Assembly (NCBI RefSeq): GCF_030915485.1
Contig: NZ_CP133266.1
Span: 930,001 to 994,000 of the forward strand
Reading direction: 5' to 3'
DNA from: Neobacillus sp. PS3-40
GTDB lineage: Bacteria; Bacillota; Bacilli; Bacillales; Cytobacillaceae
DNA length: 64,000 nucleotides
Shown here: positions 44,956 through 59,452 of the stretch, piece after piece
Position numbering within the stretch: the stretch's first letter is position 1
Layout: the number at the start of each line of letters is the position of its first letter
Program-made: the position numbers and the translations under genes
Notes under the pieces: generated by a model
What the model saw: the letters and a program-made list of their open reading frames with translations, nothing else
The model's database searches: none
What the model was told of the DNA's origin: nothing

Positions 44956-46650
44956 GAGGCCACTGAAAAAGTCCCATTTTTTTAGGCAGTTGAAAGTTTG
45001 AATTAATCAAACTTTCAACTGCCTATTTGTCTTATAATAATGATATTAAATGTATGTAGGTGATATCTAAATGATTTCCAATCAAGAATCTCTCAATTTC
45101 AGTCCATATTTAGCTATTTTTGATCTCGTAGTTCCAGAGGATAATATGCTTCGCCAAATCAATAAACTAGTTGACTTTTCATTTATTCTTGAAGAATTAA
45201 AAACGAAATATTGTCTTGATAACGGTCGGAATGCAGTGTCACCGATTCGTATGTTCAAATATCTATTGCTTAAATCAATTTATGATTTGTCAGATGTAGA
45301 TGTAGTAGAACGTTCAAAATATGATATGTCGTTTAAATATTTCCTCGATATGGCACCAGAAGATTCCGTAATTGACCCAAGTTCTTTAACAAAATTCCGT
45401 AAACTCCGTCTTCAAGATGTGGGTTTATTAGATATGCTCATTGGAAAGACCGTTGAGATTGCAATTAAAAAGGAAATTATTAAAAATAAAACCATTATTG
45501 TTGATGCTACACATACAAAAGCACGTTATAACCAAAAATCACCGAGAGAATTTTTGCAGGAGAAATCAAAAAATGTGCGAAAAGCCGTTTATCAGTTCGA
45601 TGAATCCATGAAAGAGAAATTCCCATCCAAAACAACTTCTAACGAAGTAACAGATGAATTAAATTATTGCCGTCAAATCATTTCTGTTGTCGAGTCAGAA
45701 CCAAAAATTGCGGCAACCCCAGCTGTAAAGGAAAAATTAAATGTACTAAAAGAAGTAGTGGAAGATTATACAGAACAACTGGCTTTTTCAACAGACCCAG
45801 ACGCACGTGTAGGACATAAAACAGCTGATTCTTCTTTTTTTGGCTACAAAACGCATATTGCAATGAGTGATGAACGAATTATTACAGCTGCAGTTGTGAC
45901 AACAGGTGAAAAAAGTGATGGAAAATATCTGCAGGAATTAATTAAAAAAGCCAAGCAACAGGAATGGAAATTAATACAATTATTGGGGATACTGCCTACT
46001 CTGAGAAAAATAATATTTGTTATACAAAAGAACATCAATTAACACTTGTTTCTAGACTGCATCCACTTATTACATATGGTAGAAGAACAAAAGAAGATGA
46101 ATTTAATTTTAATAAAGATGCAGGGATGTATGTTTGTAAAGCCGGGCATATGGCCATTCGAAAAAAATATGAAGAAAGAAAGAATCAAGATAAAAACCCT
46201 AGAATCAAGTACCTTTTTGATATTAAAAAATGTGCTGTTTGTCCTTTCCGTGAAGGATGTTATAAAGAAGGAGCGAAAAGTAAGTCCTATTCAGTAACCA
46301 TCAAATCAACGGAACATACAGGTCAAGAAGCGTTTCAAAATACGGAAGCTTTTAAAGACCTAGCGAAAACACGCTATAAAATTGAGGCGAAAAATAGTGA
46401 ACTTAAACATAGACACGGGTATGATGTGGCGTCATCTACGGGTCTATTTGGCATGGAAATACAAGGAGCTACAGCGATATTCGCAGTCAATCTCAAGAGG
46501 ATTATAAAGCTCCTCTCTGAGAAAAAATAAGATAGAATATAAAAGTAACCAAGAAAAAAGCAGTTAGTTATCCAAAATTTGGACAACTAGCTGCTTTTTT
46601 TATCCACATCCAATGAGAAAAATAAAAATTCGCCAGTTTTTCAGCAGCCT
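44956..46650 (+). mobile_element. IS1182-type insertion sequence, inactivated
   Basis: About 1695 bp. Ends are imperfect inverted repeats, GAGGCCACTGAAAAAG on the left and GAGGCTGCTGAAAAAC on the right (minus strand). Flanks share CGCTTAAGCG (44946-44955 and 46651-46660), a 9-10 bp duplication. A perfect 18-bp-arm hairpin at 44984-45024 and a terminator-like hairpin at 46557-46602 shield the transposase from outside transcription. Confidence 0.85.
45071..46530 (+). pseudogene. IS1182-family transposase, frameshifted
   Basis: Two overlapping frames (45071-46042 and about 45964-46530) together give a full transposase of roughly 485 residues. The first carries the DDE Asp of IVDATHTKARYN; the second begins with the continuation GMEINTIIGDTAYSEKNN, holding the second Asp, and ends with the Glu of KNSELKHRHG. 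Loss of one G near 45959 (CAGGGAATG to CAGGAATG) explains the shift. The C-terminal part has a Cys cluster CAVCPFREGC. Neither piece alone has all catalytic residues. Confidence 0.88.
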
Positions 46651-47497: not shown

Positions 47498-48007
47498 TTA
47501 TTTATCGTGTTTTTTTACCATATTATACAATTGCATTTCGGTAATTGGACCATTATAATGCTCTCTAATTATTCCTTTTTTATCAATAACAAATGTTTCA
47601 GGCTGGCCAGTCGTATTATACATTTTAGTTATTTTAGCATTATAATCGAATAAGTAGGTTGCATTTGAAGGAAATTTTTTAAGAAATTGTTTAACGTTAT
47701 CTTTCGTTTCGCCTTTGTTAAGCATGACTAAATTGTACTTATCTCCATAGTCCTTTTCAAAAGCTTGCAATTCTGGTGCTTCTTCTTTACATGGTTGACA
47801 CCAAGTAGCAAAAACATTGATTACAACCATTTTCCCAGTAAAATCAGAAAGCTTTGTTGTTGACCCATCCAAATTAGGCAACTCAAAATTATAGGCTTTA
47901 TCACCAACATCGGTATGTTTTCCGTGGCTTACAAGGCTGTAAGCAAAAAAAGTAAACATCCCAAACAAGAGAGCCAATATGAGAATCTTTCCACCTCGTT
48001 TGTTCAC
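47498..48007 (-). CDS. ccmG: Thiol-disulfide oxidoreductase, CcmG/ResA type
   Basis: 169 residues from a GTG at 48007 with GGGGGAG ahead. N-terminal signal anchor (about 7-26) and a TlpA/ResA-like thioredoxin fold with active site WCQPC (Cys71, Cys74) and the cis-Pro region TGQPETFVID. Outside the membrane it would reduce apocytochrome Cys residues before heme attachment. Last gene of the ccm operon, after a 30-bp perfect palindrome. Confidence 0.9.
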   Translation of the reverse strand: MNKRGGKILILALLFGMFTFFAYSLVSHGKHTDVGDKAYNFELPNLDGSTTKLSDFTGKMVVINVFATWCQPCKEEAPELQAFEKDYGDKYNLVMLNKGETKDNVKQFLKKFPSNATYLFDYNAKITKMYNTTGQPETFVIDKKGIIREHYNGPITEMQLYNMVKKHDK

Positions 48008-48060
48008 TTTATCTCCCCCTAACATCAGTGAATTTCAGTAAGTAGTCTGATGTTTTATAG

Positions 48061-48090
48061 AATAGGCCTGTTATTTATAACAGGCCTATT
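48061..48090. other. Perfect 30-bp palindrome between ccmD and ccmG
   Basis: Arms AATAGGCCTGTTAT and ATAACAGGCCTATT around TT. No T run follows on the minus strand, so it is more likely an RNA stem that separates ccmG expression or a protein-binding site than a terminator. Confidence 0.5.
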
Positions 48091-48097
48091 CATGGTT

Positions 48098-48223
48098 TTA
48101 TTTTTCGATCTGTTTTAAAAATTCGATTTCCTTTTTAAGATTGTTTTGCCGTTTTCCTAAAAGAAAAAGGTAACCAAAAATAATCAACCAAATAACTGAA
48201 TATGCTCCCCAAACAAATGCCAT
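48098..48223 (-). CDS. ccmD: CcmD-like small membrane protein
   Basis: 41 residues: MAFVWGAYSVIWLIIFGYLF, one membrane helix, then a basic amphipathic tail (LLGKRQNNLKKEIEFLKQIEK region). CcmD proteins are short single-helix partners of CcmC and the CcmABCD heme-release complex, and the position right after ccmC is the standard one. GGAGGAGATT precedes the ATG. Short enough to be easily missed. Confidence 0.85.
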   Translation of the reverse strand: MAFVWGAYSVIWLIIFGYLFLLGKRQNNLKKEIEFLKQIEK

Positions 48224-48235
48224 AATAATCTCCTC

Positions 48236-48997
48236 CTATTTTTCTAATTCTTCTCTTAATTTTTCCTTGTATTGATTTACTTTTATTTTCATATTTTCAA
48301 ATGCTACTCCTCTGTTAAGGAGATACGCATAAAGGATTGTTAAAGCAGCAATTGAGACTAACAAGGCTACTAGCATGTTATCTTCAATCCCGCCACCTTT
48401 TTGCGAAACACCATTTCCAAAAACAATTGGGTGAAATTTGGTTTGCCACCAACGGATTGCAAAGAAAACAATTGGAACATCTGTAAAACCAATAATTCCA
48501 AATACGGCACAAAGTCTTGCACGTTTATCCCATACACCATCCATTTGGCGAATCATGATATACGCCATATAGATAAACCAAAGAATTAAGGTGGTTGTTA
48601 AGCGAGGCTCCCATGCCCACCATGTATTCCAAGCAGATTTTGCCCAGATAGGTCCAGTTGTTAAAACCAAAGTGGTAAAAACTAGACCAATTTCTGCTGA
48701 CACATAGGCATATGTGTCAAAAATTCTTTTTCTTTTAACTAGATATAAAATACTAAAAATAAAAGTTACAAAAAAAGCTAAAAATGCGGTTGATGCAGAA
48801 CCTACATGGAAATAAAAGATTTTTTGCACGATACCCATGGTTTTTTCAATGTGCGCATACATAAATATTAAATAAATGGCGGCCAAAATGGATATGACCG
48901 TTCCTCCAAATAAAATTTTTGGAAGAATTGGGCTCTTTACATCTGTCGACTCTGACACATGAATTGCCGATTTCTCTCGTTCGAGATTCATACTCAT
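48236..48997 (-). CDS. ccmC: Heme-handling protein CcmC
   Basis: 253 residues with six membrane helices. The periplasm-facing Trp-rich motif reads WNTWWAWEPRLTTTL (family WGTWWxWDxRLT), and the two heme-ligand His positions are in YFHVGSAS and KFHPI. CcmC loads heme onto CcmE. It has a 30-residue cytoplasmic N-terminus and a basic C-terminal tail longer than in proteobacteria. Lies 3 bp after ccmB. Confidence 0.92.
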   Translation of the reverse strand: MSMNLEREKSAIHVSESTDVKSPILPKILFGGTVISILAAIYLIFMYAHIEKTMGIVQKIFYFHVGSASTAFLAFFVTFIFSILYLVKRKRIFDTYAYVSAEIGLVFTTLVLTTGPIWAKSAWNTWWAWEPRLTTTLILWFIYMAYIMIRQMDGVWDKRARLCAVFGIIGFTDVPIVFFAIRWWQTKFHPIVFGNGVSQKGGGIEDNMLVALLVSIAALTILYAYLLNRGVAFENMKIKVNQYKEKLREELEK

Positions 48998-49000
48998 TTC

Positions 49001-49675
49001 CTAAACCTCCAGCACATATTCTATTAATAGAAAACATAGGACAAAAAAGATTACATCATAGGCTGATACCAGTTGGATCCATGCCATCGCACTCGACAAC
49101 TTTTCCATATTCGTCAAGATAATTCTAGTTGCTTGAACAACCCCAATTAAAATTGGGCTTGTTATTGGGAAAAGAAGCAATGGGAGGAGCATTTCACTAC
49201 TTTTTGAATTAGCCGCTAGCGCTGCCAAAAAAGTACCTATACTGATAAATCCAAAACTCCCTATAAACATTATTAAGATAAAATAAGGGATACTACCCAG
49301 AACTTGAAAATTAAATAATAAGAAAAGAAATGGGATTGACACCAGTTCCACCACAAGCATCATCGTGAAATTAGCTAAAAACTTCCCTAAAAAAACACTT
49401 GAAGCATCCATCGGTGCAATCAATAAACCTTGCATAGTATCATTTCGCTGTTCCGATATAAATGAGCGATTTAGCCCCAAGATTCCCGAGAACACGACTA
49501 TAACCCATATTACCCCTGGAATTACTGCCTTTGTGGTATTATTTGCTGGATCGAAAGCAAAACTAAAAACTAAGATCACCAATCCCGCAAAAATAATCAT
49601 TGTTGTAAGGACCTGCTTCGTCTTTAGTTCTGAATATAAATCTTTTTTCGCAAGTAGGAGGGCTGTTTTAATCAT
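49001..49675 (-). CDS. ccmB: Heme exporter membrane subunit CcmB
   Basis: 224 residues, six membrane helices, CcmB family (SELKTKQVLTTMIIFAGLV near the N-terminus, SEMLLPLLLFPITSPILIG near residue 165). Permease partner of the CcmA ATPase; together they release holo-CcmE from CcmC. ATG overlaps the ccmA stop (ATGA). Confidence 0.92.
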   Translation of the reverse strand: MIKTALLLAKKDLYSELKTKQVLTTMIIFAGLVILVFSFAFDPANNTTKAVIPGVIWVIVVFSGILGLNRSFISEQRNDTMQGLLIAPMDASSVFLGKFLANFTMMLVVELVSIPFLFLLFNFQVLGSIPYFILIMFIGSFGFISIGTFLAALAANSKSSEMLLPLLLFPITSPILIGVVQATRIILTNMEKLSSAMAWIQLVSAYDVIFFVLCFLLIEYVLEV

Positions 49676-50376
49676 GATACCCCCTCCACTTGATACTGAT
49701 ATTTTTCAGAAACAAAGTTCAAGGCTTTTTCCTCAAGTCTAAAGTCATCGACCTTCTTTCCATTTTTAATAATGATAATCCGATCACATATTTCAGCAGC
49801 CTGTTTAAAATCATGTGTAACCATTAGCGTTGTCGTTCCTTTCGCCTTCATGGAGAGGATAACATTGTTTAGAATGGAAATAGCCCCTTGATCTAAGCCT
49901 GTGTGCGGTTCGTCTAAAAGCAGTAATTCTGGTTCATGAACAATTGCTCTTGCAATAGCAATCCTTTGAATCATACCTCGTGAAAAATTTTTAACAGGTT
50001 CATTTAGAAAGAAGGAAAGACCTACTTCTTTCACCAACTCTATTGCTCTTTCTTCTGCCTTCGAAACACCATATAATTTTCCGTAAAATACAAGGTTTTC
50101 TAGTGGTGAATAGTTTTCATAAAGCAAACTGGAATGGGGTAAATATCCAAAGATTTTTTTGATATCTAGATGATTTTTTTTCAAATCCAGACCATTAATT
50201 TTTACGGAGCCAGATGTCGGCTTAATTAAAGTTGCTAACACTTTTAAAAGTGTGCTCTTTCCAGCCCCGTTTGGGCCAAGAATCGCAACTGTTTCCCCTT
50301 TTCTTATTGAAAGGTCAATGCCACGTAAGATTAATTTATTATCTGCTTGCTTAGTAAGTTTTTTTATCTCAATCAT
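49672..50376 (-). CDS. ccmA: ABC ATPase CcmA
   Basis: 234 residues from ATG 50376 (MIEIKKLTKQADNK), with GAGGG 7 nt ahead. Walker A GPNGAGKST, signature FSRGMIQR, Walker B LLLLDEP and switch His VTHDF. The signature RGM form is typical of CcmA-like exporters. Drives CcmB. Confidence 0.92.
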   Translation of the reverse strand: MIEIKKLTKQADNKLILRGIDLSIRKGETVAILGPNGAGKSTLLKVLATLIKPTSGSVKINGLDLKKNHLDIKKIFGYLPHSSLLYENYSPLENLVFYGKLYGVSKAEERAIELVKEVGLSFFLNEPVKNFSRGMIQRIAIARAIVHEPELLLLDEPHTGLDQGAISILNNVILSMKAKGTTTLMVTHDFKQAAEICDRIIIIKNGKKVDDFRLEEKALNFVSEKYQYQVEGVS

Positions 50377-50400
50377 GTGTAGTCCCTCACATTCCAACTA

Positions 50401-51393
50401 CTACTCTACAAATTTACGTAAATTTATTTTTACCTGAACGAGATGTTCTTTATAAGCTTCAAGCTTTTTATGATAATCTTCTTCGGAAATATTCCCACTA
50501 TTATGGGATTCTTCCAACTCTAAAATCTTATCCATAATTACTTTTTGCTTAGACATTAATAGTTTAAAAGCTTTTTCTTCCTTATCTGCCCCTACTCTAA
50601 GGTCCTCCAATTTTGCTTTCCTTCTAAAGTAAACATAGTAGGATATTCCAGCAATAATAATGGCAAGAATAACAATCAAAAAGATATGTGGATTAAAGTT
50701 ATGCAAGGGAGACTGTTCCCAAATTCTGATATGTCCAGGATTATGAAAAGCTGGTGCAGATCTTGTAACTGAATTTGCTTCTCCATTATTACTTTTTGAT
50801 TGTGCCTGTCCTGTTGAAGCTGATGGCGGCTGTTTGTCTTTATTGTAGACCATTGTAAAAGCCTTGTTTACTTGCATTCCTTCTACACTGTATTCCCAAT
50901 AATTTTTATTATCAAAATTGTAAAGTCCCTGATTTGAAGATTCTACACCATTAAACTCTGCACTACCCATCCCCTCTGGAATAAGTACCTGCATAATTTG
51001 CACAGGATAATCGAATGTTATCTTGATTTCTTTCCCTTTTGGAATTTTATAGCTGTATTGCAATCCAACACTTTGATTTGCAGGGATAGGGTTTATTGTG
51101 AAAAATCCATTATCAACCTTTTTGATAGGCATTTTACTATCTAGAAATTTAAAATCCGTTGCTTCACTGGGTAGCGTAACCTTTAAAACTCCTTCATTTC
51201 CGTCACCCTTAAATTCTTCAGTTGATTTATTTGTATAGTCTGCCATGACTGAGATATTGGTTGAACCATCCTCAGCTGGACTTACAACAATATAATTCAT
51301 ATCAATTGAAACTTTTGATGTGGATGCGGCAAATCCAGTCAACGGGATTAGCAAGATAAGTCCTAGGAAGAGGACTGTGATTTTTTTAATCAC
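50401..51393 (-). CDS. Uncharacterised anchored extracytoplasmic protein in the ccm operon
   Basis: 330 residues: signal peptide (1-22), beta-rich outside domain (about 25-185), Ser/Asn/Gln-rich linker, one membrane helix (about 240-262), and a cytoplasmic coiled-coil tail with a helical hairpin (SGNISEEDYHKKLEAYK). Same architecture as the 54774-55814 product. Not a named Ccm component. Overlaps ccmI-like by 4 nt and ends 24 bp before ccmA, so a role in heme or cytochrome maturation is inferred from position. Confidence 0.7.
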   Translation of the reverse strand: MIKKITVLFLGLILLIPLTGFAASTSKVSIDMNYIVVSPAEDGSTNISVMADYTNKSTEEFKGDGNEGVLKVTLPSEATDFKFLDSKMPIKKVDNGFFTINPIPANQSVGLQYSYKIPKGKEIKITFDYPVQIMQVLIPEGMGSAEFNGVESSNQGLYNFDNKNYWEYSVEGMQVNKAFTMVYNKDKQPPSASTGQAQSKSNNGEANSVTRSAPAFHNPGHIRIWEQSPLHNFNPHIFLIVILAIIIAGISYYVYFRRKAKLEDLRVGADKEEKAFKLLMSKQKVIMDKILELEESHNSGNISEEDYHKKLEAYKEHLVQVKINLRKFVE

Positions 51394-51764
51394 TTTCCTT
51401 CCCCCTTTTTCTTCTTATAGCTTTGCATCGTCGCTTCTATTTCTCGTTCCACTTCCAACATTAAATCTTTATCGACATGATTATCGACGAGAGATTCTTC
51501 TTCTTTCATAATGCTAGAAATTTGTGTTTCATATTGGCTTTTTAAATTTTTGTAATCAACGTGAGATATTTTATCCATCTTATACTCAAACTCAATCTCA
51601 TTGAGGGTTGTTAACAGCGATTCCTTGATCTGTGCCGAATCCTGCCCCGTAGTATTCAAACCCAAATATGCTTCCCATTTAAACAGGGGGGAGATAATAA
51701 GGAAAAGACATCCCAGTGCTAGAACAGCGGTAAATACCATTGAAATGATTGAAATATCCTGCAT
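51390..51764 (-). CDS. ccmI: CcmI-like cytochrome c maturation protein (N-terminal type)
   Basis: 124 residues: one or two hydrophobic stretches (6-28), then helices with KESLLTTLNEIEFEYKMDKI followed by SHVDYKNLKSQYE, matching the CcmI pattern LLxxLxELExDxxxGKLSxxDYxxLKxxYE. It lacks the TPR domain of proteobacterial CcmI, as in shorter Gram-positive and archaeal forms. The family helps present apocytochrome to the lyase CcmF/CcmH. Confidence 0.75.
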   Translation of the reverse strand: MQDISIISMVFTAVLALGCLFLIISPLFKWEAYLGLNTTGQDSAQIKESLLTTLNEIEFEYKMDKISHVDYKNLKSQYETQISSIMKEEESLVDNHVDKDLMLEVEREIEATMQSYKKKKGEGK

Positions 51765-51779
51765 TTTTTAGTTCACATC

Positions 51780-52298
51780 CTAAAGATACTTTTTTCGTTC
51801 CTCATCAATCATGGAAGAAAGAATTTCACTTTCTACTTCATTCTGTTCATTATCAAACTCATTCTCAACAGATTGTTCATCCGTTCCTTTTTTCTTTACC
51901 CATTTTCGTATGACGAAGTACAATGTCCCTGCTGCCCCAAAGAGAATTACAAACGGAAGGACCCATACTGTTAAACTAAATCCACTTTTCTCCGGTGCAG
52001 TTAAAATCTCTTCTCCATAAATATTGATATAGTATTTACGGATTTTATCCTTATCCCAGCCTTTATTCATCATGCCTACCAAGTCTTTTTTAAATTGTTT
52101 CGTGAGGTTACATGTATTTGGATCACATTCAAAATGATCCTGACCACAGCCACATGTGCAAGAGAACTGTGAGGCAACTGCTTTAAATTCAGCTGATTTA
52201 TAGTCAATTTGCTTTGCTGCTTCTACCCGTATAAATGAACCTTGGAAAATAAACAATAGTAAGAGAAGAGCTATGCCTGCTTTATTTTTCACAATCAA
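51780..52298 (-). CDS. ccmH: CcmH-like thiol protein with CxCGCG motif
   Basis: 172 residues: signal peptide (1-27), a three-helix-type outside domain with FSCTCGCGQDHFECDPNTC (Cys47, 49, 51, 58, 63), then KDLVGMMNKGWDKDKIRKYYINIYGEEIL and a C-terminal membrane helix (about 107-130). The latter part is the clear CcmH/CycL signature; the usual LRCxxCQ redox motif is replaced by the Cys-rich CxCGCG. Acts with CcmF and CcmI in heme ligation. Overlaps ccmF by 4 nt. Confidence 0.85.
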   Translation of the reverse strand: MIVKNKAGIALLLLLFIFQGSFIRVEAAKQIDYKSAEFKAVASQFSCTCGCGQDHFECDPNTCNLTKQFKKDLVGMMNKGWDKDKIRKYYINIYGEEILTAPEKSGFSLTVWVLPFVILFGAAGTLYFVIRKWVKKKGTDEQSVENEFDNEQNEVESEILSSMIDEERKKYL

Positions 52299-54280
52299 GC
52301 CACCTCTTTACGTACTCCAGTGTATCTCGGAGTAATGTTATGGTATTTTCCATTCCAAACGGCAAACAGTGCACCGAGAACAATCATGAAAGAACCTATC
52401 CATAACCAATCCATCATAGGGTTCACTTTTACGAGGAAAGTGGCCTTTCCATCATTTTCCCAAGCACTTAAAACAATGTACAAGTCCTCTTTCAAGGAAG
52501 AAATGATAGCAACCTCTGATGAAGGCTGACTCTCCGTATTAGCATAGAACACCTTTTTAGGTTCAAATGAGCCTAGCTTTTTACCATCTTTAAAGACTTC
52601 TACATCCGCAAAAACAACGTCATTTACACCCTCTTTTTTCTGGTCCAGACGTTCATAATTAATTCGATAGTCTTTAATTTCAATTGATTTTCCAAGGGCA
52701 ATTGTCTTCATTGTTTGCAAGTCATAGTTTTGAGAACCAATTATCCCCATTGTGATGCATGCAATTCCAAGATGAACAAGATATCCACCATACCGGCGAC
52801 GATTTTTAACCATCAACCGATAAAGGGCTACGAAAGGATTTTCGCCAGTCATCTTTCTTCTAGCTTTAACTCCTCTATAAAACTCTAAAAAGTGAGTTAC
52901 CAATAATAGAATAATAACTCCATAACCGATAACTGCCCAAGCTTTCTGAATGCCTAGAATAACCATTAAAATCATGCCAATAACAGCGAGCGAAGCCGGA
53001 ATTAAAAAGTTTTTCTTTAAATTCTTTACACTCGATTTTTGCCAGGCAAGCATTGGACAAACTGCCATTACAAACATCATACACAATAGAATTGGTGCTT
53101 CAACCGTGTTAAAGAATGGGATCCCAACTGTTACTTTTGTTCCCCTCACAGCCTCAGAAACTAATGGGAAAATGGTTCCCCAAAAAACGGCAAATGCTGC
53201 ACCAAGCAATAATAGATTGTTTACTAAGAAAGAACTTTCTTTTGAAATAAATGAATTGAATTCCCCTGCACTTCTTTTCAGCAAGTTATACCGACTCATT
53301 AATACATAAAGAGAGCCAATTACAGCTACCCCCATGAACACTAAGAAATATAAACCCAAATTTGAGTTTGAGAACGCATGTACAGATGTTAGAACACCGC
53401 TTCGGACTAAGAATGTACCAAAAAGAGTTAAAGCGTATGAAATAATAATTAAGCTGATATTCCAAACCTTTAGCATATTTTTCCGTTCCTGAATCATGAC
53501 TGAGTGCAAGAAGGCTGTTGCTGTTAGCCATGGCATAAAAGAAGCATTTTCAACCGGATCCCATGCCCAGTAGCCACCCCAACCAAGTTCTACGTAAGCC
53601 CATTGACCACCAAAAATATTTCCTAAGCTTAAAAACAACCATGCAATGATCGTCCAACGTCTCGTCATTTTAATCCAAAAATCGTCTACATTTTTCATGA
53701 TAAGAGCTGCTATTGAAAATGCAAACGGAACAGCAAGACCAACATACCCAAGGTACAGTGTAACTGGATGAATAATCATCCCTGGGTTTTGTAGCATTGG
53801 GTTTAGCCCTTTTCCTTCTGCGGGAACTATATCCATTAGAGCAAATGGTTTAGCTACAAATCCGAGAATAAGGAAAAAGAAAACTGTATTAGCCAATAGA
53901 ATGGACATAATATATGGAACCATAGGATTTCCCTTCATTTTTCTTGAGAAGGTGATCATGATCATATAGAGTGTTAAAAAGAATGTCCATAATAGTAATG
54001 AACCAGCGTTACCTGCCCATAATGCGGTTAGCTTATAGACGATTGGAAGCTCACTGCTTGTGTAATCAACGACATATTCATAATTAAAGTTTGAAGAACC
54101 TAATAGATAAAACAGCGCAAGCATTGCAAGCCCTGCACAGATAAAAACTGAAATGATTCCACCTTTGCCGCTATTAATAAACTTTTGATTTTTCGTGCTT
54201 ATTCCCAACGTCATGATGAGAAGGGAATAGACTGCCATAGCCAAGCCTATATATATGGTTGCATTTGCAAATAAGTACAT
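52295..54280 (-). CDS. ccmF: Cytochrome c heme lyase subunit CcmF
   Basis: 661 residues, about 14-15 membrane helices, with the hallmark WGGYWAWDPVENASFMPWL (WWD domain) near residue 235 and the extracytoplasmic C-terminal domain (about 490-635). CcmF takes heme from CcmE and joins it to CxxCH cysteines. Its presence, not ResB/ResC alone, defines System I. Confidence 0.95.
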   Translation of the reverse strand: MYLFANATIYIGLAMAVYSLLIMTLGISTKNQKFINSGKGGIISVFICAGLAMLALFYLLGSSNFNYEYVVDYTSSELPIVYKLTALWAGNAGSLLLWTFFLTLYMIMITFSRKMKGNPMVPYIMSILLANTVFFFLILGFVAKPFALMDIVPAEGKGLNPMLQNPGMIIHPVTLYLGYVGLAVPFAFSIAALIMKNVDDFWIKMTRRWTIIAWLFLSLGNIFGGQWAYVELGWGGYWAWDPVENASFMPWLTATAFLHSVMIQERKNMLKVWNISLIIISYALTLFGTFLVRSGVLTSVHAFSNSNLGLYFLVFMGVAVIGSLYVLMSRYNLLKRSAGEFNSFISKESSFLVNNLLLLGAAFAVFWGTIFPLVSEAVRGTKVTVGIPFFNTVEAPILLCMMFVMAVCPMLAWQKSSVKNLKKNFLIPASLAVIGMILMVILGIQKAWAVIGYGVIILLLVTHFLEFYRGVKARRKMTGENPFVALYRLMVKNRRRYGGYLVHLGIACITMGIIGSQNYDLQTMKTIALGKSIEIKDYRINYERLDQKKEGVNDVVFADVEVFKDGKKLGSFEPKKVFYANTESQPSSEVAIISSLKEDLYIVLSAWENDGKATFLVKVNPMMDWLWIGSFMIVLGALFAVWNGKYHNITPRYTGVRKEVA

Positions 54281-54306
54281 TTCGTCACCTTCTTAAATGT
54301 GGCATC

Positions 54307-54759
54307 TTATTTATCTTTTAGCTTTTTATCGAGTATTTCTGCATGTTTTTTTGGATCGTAATTTTTCATATCTTTACCTTCATACTTGGATGGACATCTT
54401 GTTTTAACAGATTCAGCCTTGAAATTATTGTTTCCTGTCGGAGAACCTTGCAGAATACAAATTACCCCTTCAGAGAAATTATCCGGTTTAACTCCGTCAT
54501 AGCTAACATGTAAAATATTCTGATGAGAATCTTTTAGATCAAACTTTAATTGAATTTTATCTGGATTCCACTTTATTGATTTTTCAACTAACAAGCCTTC
54601 AACCGTAACAAAGTCATCTTTGTGCTGGTCCTGTGTAGCTACAAGTTGCTTCATTGTTAATTCAATCCCACTTGATCCCGGCGTTGCTGCCATTAATAGG
54701 AAAACAATTGCACCCGCGATGATAAAACCACCCAATAAAATGATCGTGTTTTTCTTCAT
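54307..54759 (-). CDS. ccmE: Heme chaperone CcmE, Cys-type (CxxxY)
   Basis: 150 residues from ATG 54759. One N-terminal membrane helix (6-24) and an OB-fold. The C-terminal heme-binding motif is RCPSKYEG (Cys122, Tyr126), a CxxxY motif in place of the HxxxY (His) of proteobacterial CcmE. This variant is known from archaea and some delta-proteobacteria (System I*). It receives heme from CcmC and hands it to CcmF. Confidence 0.9.
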   Translation of the reverse strand: MKKNTIILLGGFIIAGAIVFLLMAATPGSSGIELTMKQLVATQDQHKDDFVTVEGLLVEKSIKWNPDKIQLKFDLKDSHQNILHVSYDGVKPDNFSEGVICILQGSPTGNNNFKAESVKTRCPSKYEGKDMKNYDPKKHAEILDKKLKDK

Positions 54760-54773
54760 ACCATTCACCCTCT

Positions 54774-55814
54774 TTAAATTAATTTTTTCATTTCTTCTTC
54801 ATAGGTTTCTTGATCAATCTTTCCGTTTAACAATTTCTTACGTAGTTCCTTTTTTTCTTCGGTATTGGCGAATTTACTTTCTTTTTTTACGGTTGGTTTC
54901 TTAGATTGGTTTTTATTCGATTTATTAGCATTGTTTGTGATCGTTTTTTGCGGTTTTTGATTACCCTTTAAGCCAAGGAAAACAAATACTCCAGCAATGA
55001 TGATAGCAAGCCCGATAATAGACGCGCCTCCAACTCCAATAATTGGGCGTTTGACATTCTTATTGTCGTTTGTACCTGTAGAAGTCGTTCCGTCATGGTT
55101 TGCATCTTTTGGTGGCTGTTGTTTGTTGATTACTGACATAGTTGAATCATTATTTACTTTCTGATAGGTGAAGGAATATTTAAGATTATTGCCCTTTTTA
55201 AGATCTTTGTATTGGTAATAATAAAGTTCTTCTCCATACTCGCTTTTAGAATTACTTTGAGCCTTTGGTTCGATAACAATATTTTTTGCATCCATTGGTG
55301 CAAAAAAAGTAACATTTAGTTGGTCGATGTCAGCTCCATTTGTTAGTTCATATTTAAAGCTTTTCTGATCTTTTACCTCAATAGAATTCACGTAATACTC
55401 AACTACGAAATTATAAGTCTCATCTTTTTTAATAGGCTTTACTGGTTTCCAAGATACAATCCCTTTTTCTTTATCTACGTCATAGGGACGTTCCACTTCA
55501 GCTTTGTTCACATCTGGAAATTCAGCTGTTAGATTGATTTGAAAGTTTTTCTCCTTTGTTGGAACAGGTATTTCAATTTTCCCATCATAGTCTTGACCGC
55601 TCTTGTTTGTAATCGTCCCATACTCAGCTACAAGTAATGAAGGTAGTTCTTTAGGCCAATCTTTTGGATAATCAAATTCAGGCATAACCCGAACATCCAT
55701 TTCCTTGTACGGAAATTTCTCTGTTTGAAAGGAAGTTTCAGCACTTGCCAATCCTATGACCAAGTTTGATAAAAAGGTTGTAATAACGAGTAAAGCTAAC
55801 AACTTCTTTAGCAT
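54774..55814 (-). CDS. Uncharacterised anchored extracytoplasmic protein, first gene of the ccm operon
   Basis: 346 residues: signal peptide (1-25), beta-rich outside domain (about 27-220), linker, one membrane helix (about 258-278), a Lys/Asn-rich stretch and a C-terminal SHOCT-like helical hairpin (EKKELRKKLLNGKIDQETYE). Same architecture as 50401-51393, suggesting paralogues. It lies 14 bp ahead of ccmE. Function unknown; scaffold or assembly role in cytochrome maturation inferred. Confidence 0.7.
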   Translation of the reverse strand: MLKKLLALLVITTFLSNLVIGLASAETSFQTEKFPYKEMDVRVMPEFDYPKDWPKELPSLLVAEYGTITNKSGQDYDGKIEIPVPTKEKNFQINLTAEFPDVNKAEVERPYDVDKEKGIVSWKPVKPIKKDETYNFVVEYYVNSIEVKDQKSFKYELTNGADIDQLNVTFFAPMDAKNIVIEPKAQSNSKSEYGEELYYYQYKDLKKGNNLKYSFTYQKVNNDSTMSVINKQQPPKDANHDGTTSTGTNDNKNVKRPIIGVGGASIIGLAIIIAGVFVFLGLKGNQKPQKTITNNANKSNKNQSKKPTVKKESKFANTEEKKELRKKLLNGKIDQETYEEEMKKLI

Positions 55815-56041: not shown

Positions 56042-57328
56042 TTATTTCACTGCTGGAATATGTATTTCAATTTTAGTTCCTTCATAGTGGGCTGATTTTA
56101 TATAAAGATTTCCTTGAATACTGTCGATCCTATCCTTTAAAATAACAAGTCCATTTCCATGATATTTTCTTTTATAGTTCATAGAAGGGTCAAAGCCGAT
56201 TCCATCATCTTCGATTGAAAGCACCAGACTATTTTCTTTATGTATACAGTTCAACCAGACATTCTTTGCTTCAGAATGCTTTCGAATATTGTTAAATATT
56301 TCTTGAAAAACCCTTGTTAGTTGTACCATTTGTTCATCCGTCAGTTGGATCTTATCAAAGCTACTATGGTCTACAAAAACATGAATTCCATATGACATTT
56401 GAAAATCTTGCGTGTATTTCCATATCCATTCAGCAAGTGATTCTTTATAACCATTTATATCCCTAAGCTGATCTATCGCCTCCCTAAGTTCTACATAAGA
56501 ATCTTGAACCGCCTCACTAGCCACTTCAATTTCTTGCATGGCTTTTTCTAATTCATTATTTTTAATCATCTTTTTCAAGCGGTGCAATTGAATATTAATA
56601 AATCCAATACTTTGAGCAAGTCCATCATGTATTTCTCCTGAGATTCTCTTTCTTTCAATAATTGTTGCTTGATTTTCAATTTGTCGATATAAATTTTTAT
56701 TTTCTAAATAAATCGAAAGCATTCCTACAATTGCAGAAAATATTTTCTTTTTATCTTCTGTTAAAACATACTTTGATCTACTCCCAAACAACAAACCTCC
56801 TAATACCTTCTGGTTGTAGATTAATGGAACAGAGTAAATTGAAATTAATTTTTCAGTGTTAAGTAAAGTAAAATCCTGTGATTCAAAAGGGGTCTTTTCT
56901 AATTGGGAAAATTCCTCTACAAAAATGGGGCGTCCCCATTTGATTGTATGACTCATCACAGCACCGTGTTCCTCATAATTTTTTTCAGGATGTAAACTTC
57001 CAATTCCACTTGTACTATTCATTGCAGACTCACTAGAACGATACACGATAAATTCGGTTTCTGTAATGGACTTAATTTCTTCTAGAATTGAAATAGGAAT
57101 GCCTTTTTCCACCGTCATAGTTTGCAACTTTCCTTCAAGTCTATATAACTTTTCATTTTTTTCCTTTTGCATATTCGCTCTTCTATGTAACATGAATACT
57201 TTTAGTAATAAAGCAGTTTCGGCAAAAGCAATAAATACAGAAACGAAGATATTTTCAATGAATACGGTTAAGAAAATAATAATTAGGAGGATAGCAATAT
57301 AAATATTCCTTTTGGATATACTTTTCAT
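56042..57328 (-). CDS. Membrane sensor histidine kinase, GAF and HisKA_3 type
   Basis: 428 residues from ATG 57328, with AGGAGG 6 nt ahead. Two N-terminal membrane helices (about 8-50), a GAF-like domain (about 70-215), HisKA_3 phosphoacceptor in RKRISGEIHDGLAQSIGF (near residue 235) and HATPase (NNIRKHSEAKNV, EDDGIGFD). NarX/DegS-type class. Probably pairs with the LuxR-type regulator at 58784. It sits between the cytochrome gene and the ccm operon, so it likely controls them; signal unknown. Confidence 0.9.
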   Translation of the reverse strand: MKSISKRNIYIAILLIIIFLTVFIENIFVSVFIAFAETALLLKVFMLHRRANMQKEKNEKLYRLEGKLQTMTVEKGIPISILEEIKSITETEFIVYRSSESAMNSTSGIGSLHPEKNYEEHGAVMSHTIKWGRPIFVEEFSQLEKTPFESQDFTLLNTEKLISIYSVPLIYNQKVLGGLLFGSRSKYVLTEDKKKIFSAIVGMLSIYLENKNLYRQIENQATIIERKRISGEIHDGLAQSIGFINIQLHRLKKMIKNNELEKAMQEIEVASEAVQDSYVELREAIDQLRDINGYKESLAEWIWKYTQDFQMSYGIHVFVDHSSFDKIQLTDEQMVQLTRVFQEIFNNIRKHSEAKNVWLNCIHKENSLVLSIEDDGIGFDPSMNYKRKYHGNGLVILKDRIDSIQGNLYIKSAHYEGTKIEIHIPAVK

Positions 57329-57485
57329 ACTCTCCCTCCTCATAATTGCTATCTAATGATTACTATAAACTTTATCTATTTTTACCAGTTCCAATGAAAA
57401 TGAACTTTTTGTTAATTTTTGGTTTCAATCGTTAAATTGTTCATTAAATTACCTAAATTGTCTATTTTTATCAATTTTACTCTTT

Positions 57486-57530: not shown

Positions 57531-58187
57531 TTACTTTTTTTGAAATGTACGGACATATGTAACAACATCTGTAATATCATCTTTTTTTAACTGACGTACA
57601 CCTTCTAGACCTTTTAAGGAGGGGCCCATACGGGTATCTTCACGTCCATAAGCAGTAGCATTCCAAATTTGTTGGTCTGTTGTATATTTTAAGAATTGTG
57701 GACTCGCAAGTGATGTTCCCATATTTAGTTTACCGGCACCTTGTTCACCATGGCAGCTGAGACAATACAAGTTATACAATTTATTACCATTTTCAAGATT
57801 ACCAGCAATGGTTTTGGGAGCAGTTAATTTTAAGTCCTCTGTTTGCCAATCCCTTATATATGCAACCATATTAGTTAAATCCTTTTCTGAAACCATTGAA
57901 CCAAAGCCTGGCATAGCCGTTCCTTCTCTTCCATATTTAACGCTGTTATATATGTCTTTGTCTGTAAAAGCACTTAAAAAATGTTGGTTGTTAAGTGCCG
58001 TGCCTGCTTTTGCTCCCTCACCTTTTCCAGTTTCACCGTGACAAGCAATACATTGTTGGTTATATACCTTTTCTCCAGCTGCTATAGCTTTTGGATCCTT
58101 GTTATCTTTTAAACTATTATTGCTATACACTACAATAATGCCAATTATTACGATAAGAAGATAACTGCCGATTAAAACTTTTTTCAT
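57531..58187 (-). CDS. Membrane-anchored diheme cytochrome c
   Basis: 218 residues: N-terminal anchor (about 4-21) and two class I cytochrome c domains with CIACH (Cys46, Cys49, His50) and CLSCH (Cys142, Cys145, His146). Axial Met candidates lie in TAMPGFG and RMGPSL. Acts outside the membrane as an electron carrier. Follows the PCYCGC lipoprotein by 11 bp in one unit. It is the most obvious client in this window for the neighbouring ccm system. Confidence 0.93.
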   Translation of the reverse strand: MKKVLIGSYLLIVIIGIIVVYSNNSLKDNKDPKAIAAGEKVYNQQCIACHGETGKGEGAKAGTALNNQHFLSAFTDKDIYNSVKYGREGTAMPGFGSMVSEKDLTNMVAYIRDWQTEDLKLTAPKTIAGNLENGNKLYNLYCLSCHGEQGAGKLNMGTSLASPQFLKYTTDQQIWNATAYGREDTRMGPSLKGLEGVRQLKKDDITDVVTYVRTFQKK

Positions 58188-58198
58188 GGGTCACCCCT

Positions 58199-58645
58199 TT
58201 ATTTTGGTTCAGGTGTTGGAGTTGGTTCCCCAGCGTCTTTATATTTTTCGGTAATCAAATGGTAAATTTCCTTTGGACTTTTCCCTTTTTGATGCATTTC
58301 TATCGCCTCCCGGGCGATATCGATACAGATGTCTCAGGATATACTCATTGAATCCCATTCTTCTACAGCCTTATCTGGGCCCATTTTGTCAATATAACAT
58401 TGAAGATTGCTAACATGTCCATCCTGGGTTCCACAACCACAGTAACATGGAACTTGTGCTATAACATCTGGGTATTTTGCAGCCATTAAATAGGTTTCCT
58501 TAACCTTATCAGATGAATTTAAGACATAATCAGGCAAAGGCTTGTGTTTTGAAGCCAATGTCAAATCCTCTTTCTTGGAACTACAGCCAGCAGCAATACC
58601 AGCAAAGAGGACTATTAGTAAGAAAAGTGAGGTTATTCGTTTCAT
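58199..58645 (-). CDS. PCYCGC-motif lipoprotein, predicted selenoprotein (UGA at codon 104)
   Basis: 148 residues if the in-frame TGA at 58334-58336 is read as selenocysteine. ATG 58645 has AAAGGGG ahead. Lipoprotein signal with lipobox IAAGC (Cys21). Then VPCYCGCG (Cys67, 69, 71) and Cys83, and after the TGA a 44-codon continuation DICIDIAREAIEMHQKGKS with a PTPTPEPK tail, matching the C-terminal half of PCYCGC proteins, where relatives have C-x-x-C; here it is U-x-x-C (Sec104, Cys107). A hairpin at 58301-58319 fits a bacterial SECIS. Without readthrough the protein would stop at 103 residues and lose its second half. Metal or redox function unknown. Confidence 0.85.
58301..58319 (-). promoter_or_regulatory. 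SECIS-like hairpin for UGA decoding
   Basis: In the mRNA, TATCGCC and GGCGATA form a perfect 7-bp stem with loop CGGGA. The stem begins 14 nt after the UGA and the loop is 22-26 nt from it, with a G in the first two loop positions, as in the bacterial SECIS model. These codons are unusually G+C-rich for the locus. Confidence 0.75.
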
Positions 58646-58783: not shown

Positions 58784-59452
58784 TTAAAGCTCCTGTAGCC
58801 ATCCTTCTTTTAAAGCAAAAGTTGCTGCTTGTACACGATTGCTCATTTGTAACTTCTCCATTATGTTTCGTAAATGGTTTTTCACCGTATTTTCAGAGAT
58901 AAAAAGGGCATGAGCAATTTCTCTATTTGTCATTCCTTTCATCACTTGCATTAAAATTTCCTTTTCCCGTTTTGTCAGAATATCCGTTTTTCTCCCTGTT
59001 TTCATTATTTGGGGTTCAATTTGGGGATGATCTGAAAAATAATTCAACACTTTCCCAACTATCGGTCCAGTAAGAATACTTTCTCCTCGATTCACCATAT
59101 GAATAAATGTTAATAGCTCATTAGGAAGCAGATTTTTTAGTAAATAACCTTTTGCACCTGATCGTAATGCCTCAAAAAGCTGTTCTTCTTTATCATTAAC
59201 GGTAAGCATTAAAACTTTTACCTTAGGCATTTCCTTAATGATCATTTTCATTGCTTGTAAGCCATCCATAACAGGCATATTTACATCCATTAAAATAACA
59301 TTAGGGCTGAACTGTTTCGCCATTTCATATGCTTCTTGACCGTTTTGTGCTTTTCCAACGATCTGAATGGACTCGTCATCCGAAAGAATACTTTCTATTC
59401 CACGAATAAACATATAATGGTCATCAGCTATTAATACTTTTATCTTATTCAT
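58784..59452 (-). CDS. Response regulator, NarL/LuxR type
   Basis: 222 residues. Receiver with phosphoacceptor Asp56 (VILMDVNMPVMDG) and C-terminal LuxR helix-turn-helix (LTKREKEILMQVMKGMTNREIAH, then SENTVKNH). Likely partner of the histidine kinase at 56042; the cytochrome and selenoprotein genes lie between them. Candidate regulator of the island. Confidence 0.92.
   Translation of the reverse strand: MNKIKVLIADDHYMFIRGIESILSDDESIQIVGKAQNGQEAYEMAKQFSPNVILMDVNMPVMDGLQAMKMIIKEMPKVKVLMLTVNDKEEQLFEALRSGAKGYLLKNLLPNELLTFIHMVNRGESILTGPIVGKVLNYFSDHPQIEPQIMKTGRKTDILTKREKEILMQVMKGMTNREIAHALFISENTVKNHLRNIMEKLQMSNRVQAATFALKEGWLQEL

Follow-up and report, generated by a model that had tools for sequence, protein, structure and literature searches.

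A widespread Bacillaceae branch of the PCYCGC (PF13798) selenoprotein family, predicted from a Neobacillus gene beside cytochrome c maturation genes

Described relatives and the Neobacillus gene

The OS_HP4 selenoproteins are said to go back to Zhang and Gladyshev in 2007, whose work on an Olavius symbiont is reportedly the founding paper of the group, with the exact selenocysteine (Sec) site there taken from the motif. In the passages of a 2026 review that list such families, PF13798/CYCXC appears as the UxxC selenoprotein OS_HP4 (PMC13188914), and the corresponding part of an earlier review also has OS_HP4 with UxxC (PMC9312934). Here we describe a 64,000-nt stretch of DNA of Neobacillus sp. 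PS3-40 (the window; all coordinates are positions in it, unless a genome and contig are named), which carries on its minus strand a PF13798 lipoprotein gene (58199..58645, 148 codons plus TAA; its protein is P0001) with an in-frame UGA as codon 104. Since PF13798 is already catalogued as OS_HP4, the gene represents a new member and not a new kind of selenoprotein, and by its sequence it very probably belongs to a new, widespread and divergent Bacillaceae lipoprotein branch of that listed family. A preliminary description made from the letters of the window had proposed a selenoprotein at this place, and its details stood with two corrections: the strand, which it had left unnamed, is minus, and the PF13798 family had already been listed as containing selenoproteins.

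A word search of the open-access literature, with most subscription papers outside its scope, found no description of a Bacillaceae Sec form of PF13798, nor of a Gram-positive branch beside cytochrome c assembly genes with a conserved RNA signal, and the portions of PMC2398784, PMC5029168 and PMC12013277 reached by word look-ups contained no passage on the PF13798 family. In RefSeq, relatives on plasmids are called 'PCYCGC motif-containing (lipo)protein' or 'PCYCGC domain-containing protein', and these were compared by name only.

Reading frame, hairpin and selenocysteine machinery

On genomic and evolutionary grounds it is highly likely that the gene encodes a selenoprotein with Sec at UGA104. 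Read from 58645 to 58199, the minus-strand frame has a single TGA at residue 104 (58334..58336), followed by 44 more codons ending in PTPTPEPK and then TAA, and translation confirmed this part of the preliminary description; a plus-strand reading of the same interval was ruled out by several stops. The Pfam PF13798 score rises from 53.6 bits with the pre-TGA part alone to 107.4 bits with the whole frame (residues 32-147), the gathering cut-off being 25. The signal peptide and lipobox region, read from the sequence with no signal-peptide program, extends to the nearly invariant Cys21 (58583..58645, minus strand), and the PCYCGC motif at residues 66-71 (58433..58450, minus strand) contains the invariant Cys67, Cys69 and Cys71.

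Homologues were collected from 13 named loci and from fetched stretches of genomes of the same family, which gave 138 hits, or 119 distinct ones (the window's own included) after removal of identical copies, and 118 readable ones without the fragment L073, which does not include the Sec column; the codon counts cover the fetched loci, which hold part of the genome-search matches. At the Sec place the 119 distinct hits have TGA in 95 cases, TGT in 16, TGC in 7 and a gap in one, and nothing else. The preliminary description had placed the TGA at the first Cys of a CxxC found in relatives, and this agrees with the homologues, as none of the 118 readable sequences has anything other than UGA (95/118) or a Cys codon (23/118) there. 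A sequencing error, which it had mentioned as a possible cause, is excluded because the UGA is common to 95 distinct sequences. On a tree of 117 rows, from which rows under 100 residues were excluded, Sec and Cys have been exchanged in at least seven changes (six to seven in bootstrap trees).

Behind the UGA lies a hairpin (58301..58319, minus strand), assigned by sequence, fold, comparison and covariation as a putative bacterial selenocysteine insertion sequence (bSECIS). Its stem TATCGCC/GGCGATA is a perfect 7 bp that starts 14 nt after the TGA, and its loop CGGGA starts 21 nt after the TGA, as originally read. The bSECIS model, as set out in the relevant passages of the 2026 review, has a loop of 3-9 nt, an upper stem of 4-16 bp, a G in the first two loop positions, a distance from UGA to loop of 16-37 nt and a minimum free energy of at most -7.5, and the published loop pattern is a G and then a G or U (PMC13188914). 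The window hairpin lies within these limits with its loop of 5, stem of 7, CGGGA loop, 21 nt distance and -13.8 kcal/mol for a 51-nt stretch containing it, which supports the SECIS-like identity first suggested for it. With regard to its fold, the single hairpin is by itself only moderately unusual (z -2.47; 5/200 shuffles fold as well); the weight lies with the comparative evidence.

The five inner pairs are formed in 95/95 UGA genes, which all have at least this stem length, whereas they are formed in 0/23 Cys genes, and the loop begins 21 nt behind the UGA in each of the 95 UGA genes, its sequence being CGGGA in 61 and CGTGA in 34, both of which fit the published loop pattern. One of the 95 UGA stretches (L143) folds at just -5.9. 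Pair 4 varies between CG, AU, UA and UG by synonymous changes in an Ile codon as well as in an Ala codon. Pair 1 is CG except in three sequences with a change of Glu to Asp, where it is GC. The outer pairs 6 and 7 form in only part of the genes (68/95 and 57/95). Covariation was counted on the 83 distinct 48-nt stretches from the 95 UGA genes, and gave 26 doubly changed cells vs 4.2 in shuffles and a covariation score of 0.217 vs 0.102 in shuffles (0/500 shuffles as high in either case), and all covariation measures were reduced by sliding the pairing partner. The covariation which the preliminary description had named as a check is thus present, and the hairpin is absent from all 23 Cys forms. 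A similar hairpin with other pairs was found in two UGA forms that come from other families of the phylum; in this phylum sample PF13798 is present in 8/398 genomes.

The genes on which the preliminary description had made its reading depend are all in the genome, with selA (554.6 bits), selB (352.9 bits) and selD (399.7 bits) over their cut-offs, and with a tRNA-Sec of 58.5 bits vs a gathering score of 47 and an anticodon tca in ARAGORN. The selD gene itself (L182, G000:C1:153221-154147) has an in-frame UGA in the active-site motif STKAGUGCK. In-frame UGA codons are also found in a formate dehydrogenase gene over the family cut-off (L144, G000:C1:623423-625444) and in a second, formate dehydrogenase-like gene that is under the family cut-off and matched in pieces (L146, 2716371-2719184 of the same contig). 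Both carry GCC-GGTCT-GGC behind the UGA, which for L144 was taken from the sequence reading because the minimum-energy fold favours another pairing. Together with the window gene, this makes at least four genes that by their sequences appear to use UGA as Sec in this genome. The in-frame UGA form was found in 92/193 genomes of the family searched (hand count from tables), and selA is over its cut-off in 91/92 of these vs 81/101 of the genomes without the UGA form (Fisher p 1.2e-5, genomes hand-counted).

Alternatives to selenocysteine insertion

If the UGA were a real stop, the gene product would be only 103 residues long (109 if started at an upstream ATG), and the frame downstream would be a remnant that is not translated. 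Open reading frame calling with Table 11 does end at the UGA, and in one of the 92 genomes with the UGA form (G171) the gene and an intact hairpin are found (L071, G171:C28) without selA over the cut-off (best E 7.5e-4), without selB over the cut-off and without a tRNA-Sec over the gathering score (150/203 candidates scored). This exception would be accounted for by mis-binning of the contig or by a recent transfer; the composition of the contig, compared with four other stretches, is not clearly foreign. A stop is contradicted by the presence of Cys at the codon in 23/118 sequences, by the invariant C107, Y135, T142 and T144 after the UGA, and by selection on the 44 post-UGA codons, for which the ratio of nonsynonymous to synonymous substitution (dN/dS) is 0.08-0.24 when compared with nine sequences of eight related loci. 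Of the 55 loci with a downstream cytochrome c gene (48 UGA forms and seven Cys forms), 54 have their next in-frame stop 44 codons after the Sec place and one has it after 45 codons; this end stop is TAA in 39, TAG in 16 and TGA in none. Judged by these comparisons, the 44 codons after the UGA are protein-coding and under selection, and sequencing error, pseudogene and plain stop were rejected on the 95 UGA sequences, the post-UGA selection and the position of the end stop, so that we give a real stop next to no credence. Against the frameshift or nonsense mutation which had been considered less likely at the outset, the frame does not shift, the codons after the UGA are under selection and the end stop has kept its position.

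The evidence for Sec at position 104 is sequence evidence, which leaves room for a UGA that is read through without selenium, be it by a near-cognate Trp, another form of suppression or a programmed frameshift. With such read-through it would be hard to reconcile that the replacing residue is Cys in 23/23 exchanges and never Trp, that the hairpin is kept only with UGA and that the genome has a complete Sec pathway, while a programmed frameshift is opposed by a frame that does not shift; we consider selenium-free read-through just as improbable as the stop.

Next to G171, some results weigh against Sec insertion at this codon or soften its comparative support. When 600 random pairs of more distant UGA forms are compared, the codons behind the UGA give a pN/pS of 0.47, with synonymous sites near saturation, and only two of the Sec/Cys changes are forced by strongly supported (starred) branches. 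Pairs changed on both sides number 3 vs 1.9 in shuffles, a value reached by 53/500 shuffles. For R1, the covariance model of the hairpin, this gene is the sole match in the genome (the others have E 3.66 and 5.17; 150/1193 candidates scored), so that the hairpin is not a near copy of those in the genome's other UGA genes. Set against the codon, hairpin and machinery evidence, these points leave insertion of Sec at UGA104 as our strongly preferred reading.

Locus, possible function and comparison with known systems

The product is predicted from its sequence to be a membrane-anchored lipoprotein that faces outwards. An alignment of 86 diverse family members, which was used for both invariance and structure, has Y52, C67, C69, C71, H77, C83, Sec/Cys104, C107, Y135, T142 and T144 as invariant positions. 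In the AlphaFold model (mean predicted local distance difference test score, pLDDT, 90.2) residues 105-119 form a helix, so that Sec104 and Cys107 would stand at the helix start, and the Sec104-Cys107 selenenylsulfide pair proposed in the preliminary description is plausible from sequence and model; a sequence search of solved structures with the family profile gave nothing meaningful (best E 0.22). In the mechanism that we propose, the ribosome would reach UGA104, where SelB and tRNA-Sec (anticodon UCA), directed by the hairpin 14 nt downstream, would insert Sec, and translation would go on for 44 codons to the UAA, next to which the cytochrome c gene has its ribosome-binding site. The resulting lipoprotein, anchored in the membrane and facing outwards, would present three invariant Cys residues (CxCxC), a His and a fourth Cys, and then Sec104-x-x-Cys107 at the start of the helix, and Sec104 and Cys107 may cycle between selenol/thiol and selenenylsulfide.

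The gene lies upstream of a cytochrome c gene, as had been noted, and this di-haem cytochrome c gene with two Cytochrome_CBB3 stretches (57531..58187) follows directly downstream, on the minus strand like the sensor kinase, X55, CcmE, CcmF, CcmH, ResA/CcmG-like and response regulator genes named below. The downstream order continues with a sensor histidine kinase (56042..57343), which by family match is weakly NarX/NarQ-like and was not encountered next to the gene in loci of the relatives, X55 (54774..55814), known from sequence comparison as a conserved secreted or membrane protein with no family above cut-off, CcmE (54307..54768, PF03100), CcmF (52295..54280, PF16327 and PF01578), CcmH (51780..52298, PF03918 and alignment; it has a CTCGCGQD motif), CcmA (132.1 bits, just over its cut-off), a CcmB-like gene (so named for its position and sequence alone), a CcmC-like gene that scores below its NCBIfam cut-off, and a thioredoxin-fold protein like ResA/CcmG (47498..48025; AhpC-TSA, Redoxin and Thioredoxin matches). 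Upstream is a NarL-like response regulator (58784..59452), with close copies upstream in only three relatives' loci (L018, L136 and L142). X55 and the protein of 50401-51393 are two secreted or membrane proteins among the ccm genes with no family above cut-off, and X55 is kept in the selenoprotein locus of many relatives. The stretch 47498-54768 represents a cytochrome c maturation (Ccm, system I) locus in a Bacillus relative, and Bacillota such as B. subtilis are described, in the passages concerned, as having system II and not Ccm (PMC9145763, PMC12285233). Further along, two overlapping reading frames at 45071-46530 resemble, by sequence only, one frame-shifted transposase.

A cytochrome c neighbour is present in 55/82 of the type-B loci in which 900 nt or more follow the codon (seven of the 55 are Cys forms), and CcmE is near the gene in 45 hits. 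We infer an extracytoplasmic Sec-Cys oxidoreductase, which in this locus probably serves cytochrome c maturation; that it does so by keeping apocytochrome or haem-handling thiols reduced, together with CcmH and the ResA/CcmG-like protein, has in our view not quite an even chance of being right. With regard to function, it counts against this role that 27/82 type-B loci are without a cytochrome c neighbour and that such a neighbour is found in 0/20 type-A copies, within the flanking DNA available, and therefore a function in cytochrome c alone cannot apply to the family as a whole.

The main rival on function keeps the selenoprotein and has its Cys/His/Sec set mainly bind metal (Cu, Zn or similar), making it a metal chaperone or sensor and not a thiol-disulfide reductase. 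It would account for the invariance of C67, C69, C71, H77, C83, U/C104 and C107, and for the surroundings of the paralogues: the type-A sequences (20, motif GFGU) have a heavy-metal P-type ATPase cluster nearby in 10/20, an ArsR-type regulator cluster is near 12 type-A hits (Pfam names taken from L071), and tandem type-B copies have a DUF326 protein and a P-type ATPase in their neighbourhood (L092). The window neighbours, however, are haem and cytochrome c maturation genes, and among the other copies there are some (L071, L080) next to DsbD-type membrane electron carriers and a ResA-like protein, and we regard metal binding as the chief function as somewhat improbable, if a serious contender. 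The position of paralogues next to metal pumps suggests a use of the same chemistry at other loci, for thiols under metal stress or for the handling of metal, and the redox and metal-binding roles may be combined. Tandem UGA copies about 640-740 nt apart were seen in L049, L055, L092, L098 and L112; L072 (G030:C12) is a decayed copy with internal TGA, TAG and TAA, and type-C copies have a TatC-like neighbour in 7/13 (recognised from sequence, with no family call).

A distant kinship of the PCYCGC domain with CcmH is suggested, and only suggested, by profile and model comparisons. The family alignment matched the local CcmH (17 sequences) in hhalign with P 3.4e-5 and 1.3e-5, at a score of 35.8 vs a best of 26.1 in 150 column shuffles (0/150 as high) and 14.8 for the reversed alignment, and with Cys masked this fell to 21.0 (P 0.014). 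The top Foldseek match in the PDB was 2hl7 (CcmH), but with E 0.69 and a root-mean-square deviation of 7.1, and the CcmH structure model is poor (pLDDT 58.5) and no help to the comparison. Pfam CcmH (PF03918) was reached by only 3/86 members (best E 0.036), and is absent from the P0001 matches at E up to 10 (gathering cut-off 25). In the CcmH at 51780-52298, CTCGCGQD is followed by two more Cys in a PCYCGC-like pattern, the letters being invariant in 17/17 aligned copies. A wider scheme would have PF13798 as a divergent CcmH-like family of thiol reductants, repeatedly changing between CxxC and Sec-x-x-Cys, with a dedicated selenium-dependent lipoprotein reductant for cytochrome c maturation in the Bacillaceae Ccm loci and paralogues re-used at heavy-metal resistance loci; we offer this tentatively and think it rather unlikely as a whole.

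Open reading frame calling that treats the UGA as a stop would lose the last third of the protein, including half of the Sec-Cys pair, and would do so for a form present in nearly half of the genomes searched. The repeated exchange of Sec and Cys, with the hairpin absent from every Cys form, amounts to a natural experiment on the benefit of selenium. If true, a selenoprotein tied to Gram-positive cytochrome c assembly would give a testable role to a Pfam family of unknown function, and it would to our knowledge be the first selenoprotein of the Ccm pathway.

Finally, the closest described systems can be set beside the window gene. NF041379, the NCBIfam profile of the CYCXC family (seleno)protein OS_HP4, has the same PF13798 domain with Sec in UxxC and aligns with P0001 over residues 45-136, across the Sec site, yet P0001, with 73.6 bits, falls short of the curated cut-off of 90 and differs in being a Bacillaceae lipoprotein in a ccm locus. 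CcmH (PF03918; PDB 2hl7, 2kw0) may be distantly akin, as the profile and Foldseek comparisons suggest, although the PCYCGC family does not belong to it in Pfam. The bSECIS elements that this genome has in its formate dehydrogenase and SelD genes (GTTGCC-GGTCT-GGCAAC, GCC-GGTCT-GGC and GGTCC-TGA-GGACC) share the short stem and the small loop with an early G close after the UGA, whereas the loop of the window gene and its relatives is CGGGA or CGTGA, and they are not matched by R1, the model of the window hairpin. The Cys-form PCYCGC (lipo)proteins (types B-Cys and C-Cys, and AOT13_14730 of Parageobacillus, as far as described in the passages on it in PMC13068155) have the same domain, lipobox, CxCxC and a CxxC at the Sec position, but carry Cys in place of Sec and are without the hairpin.
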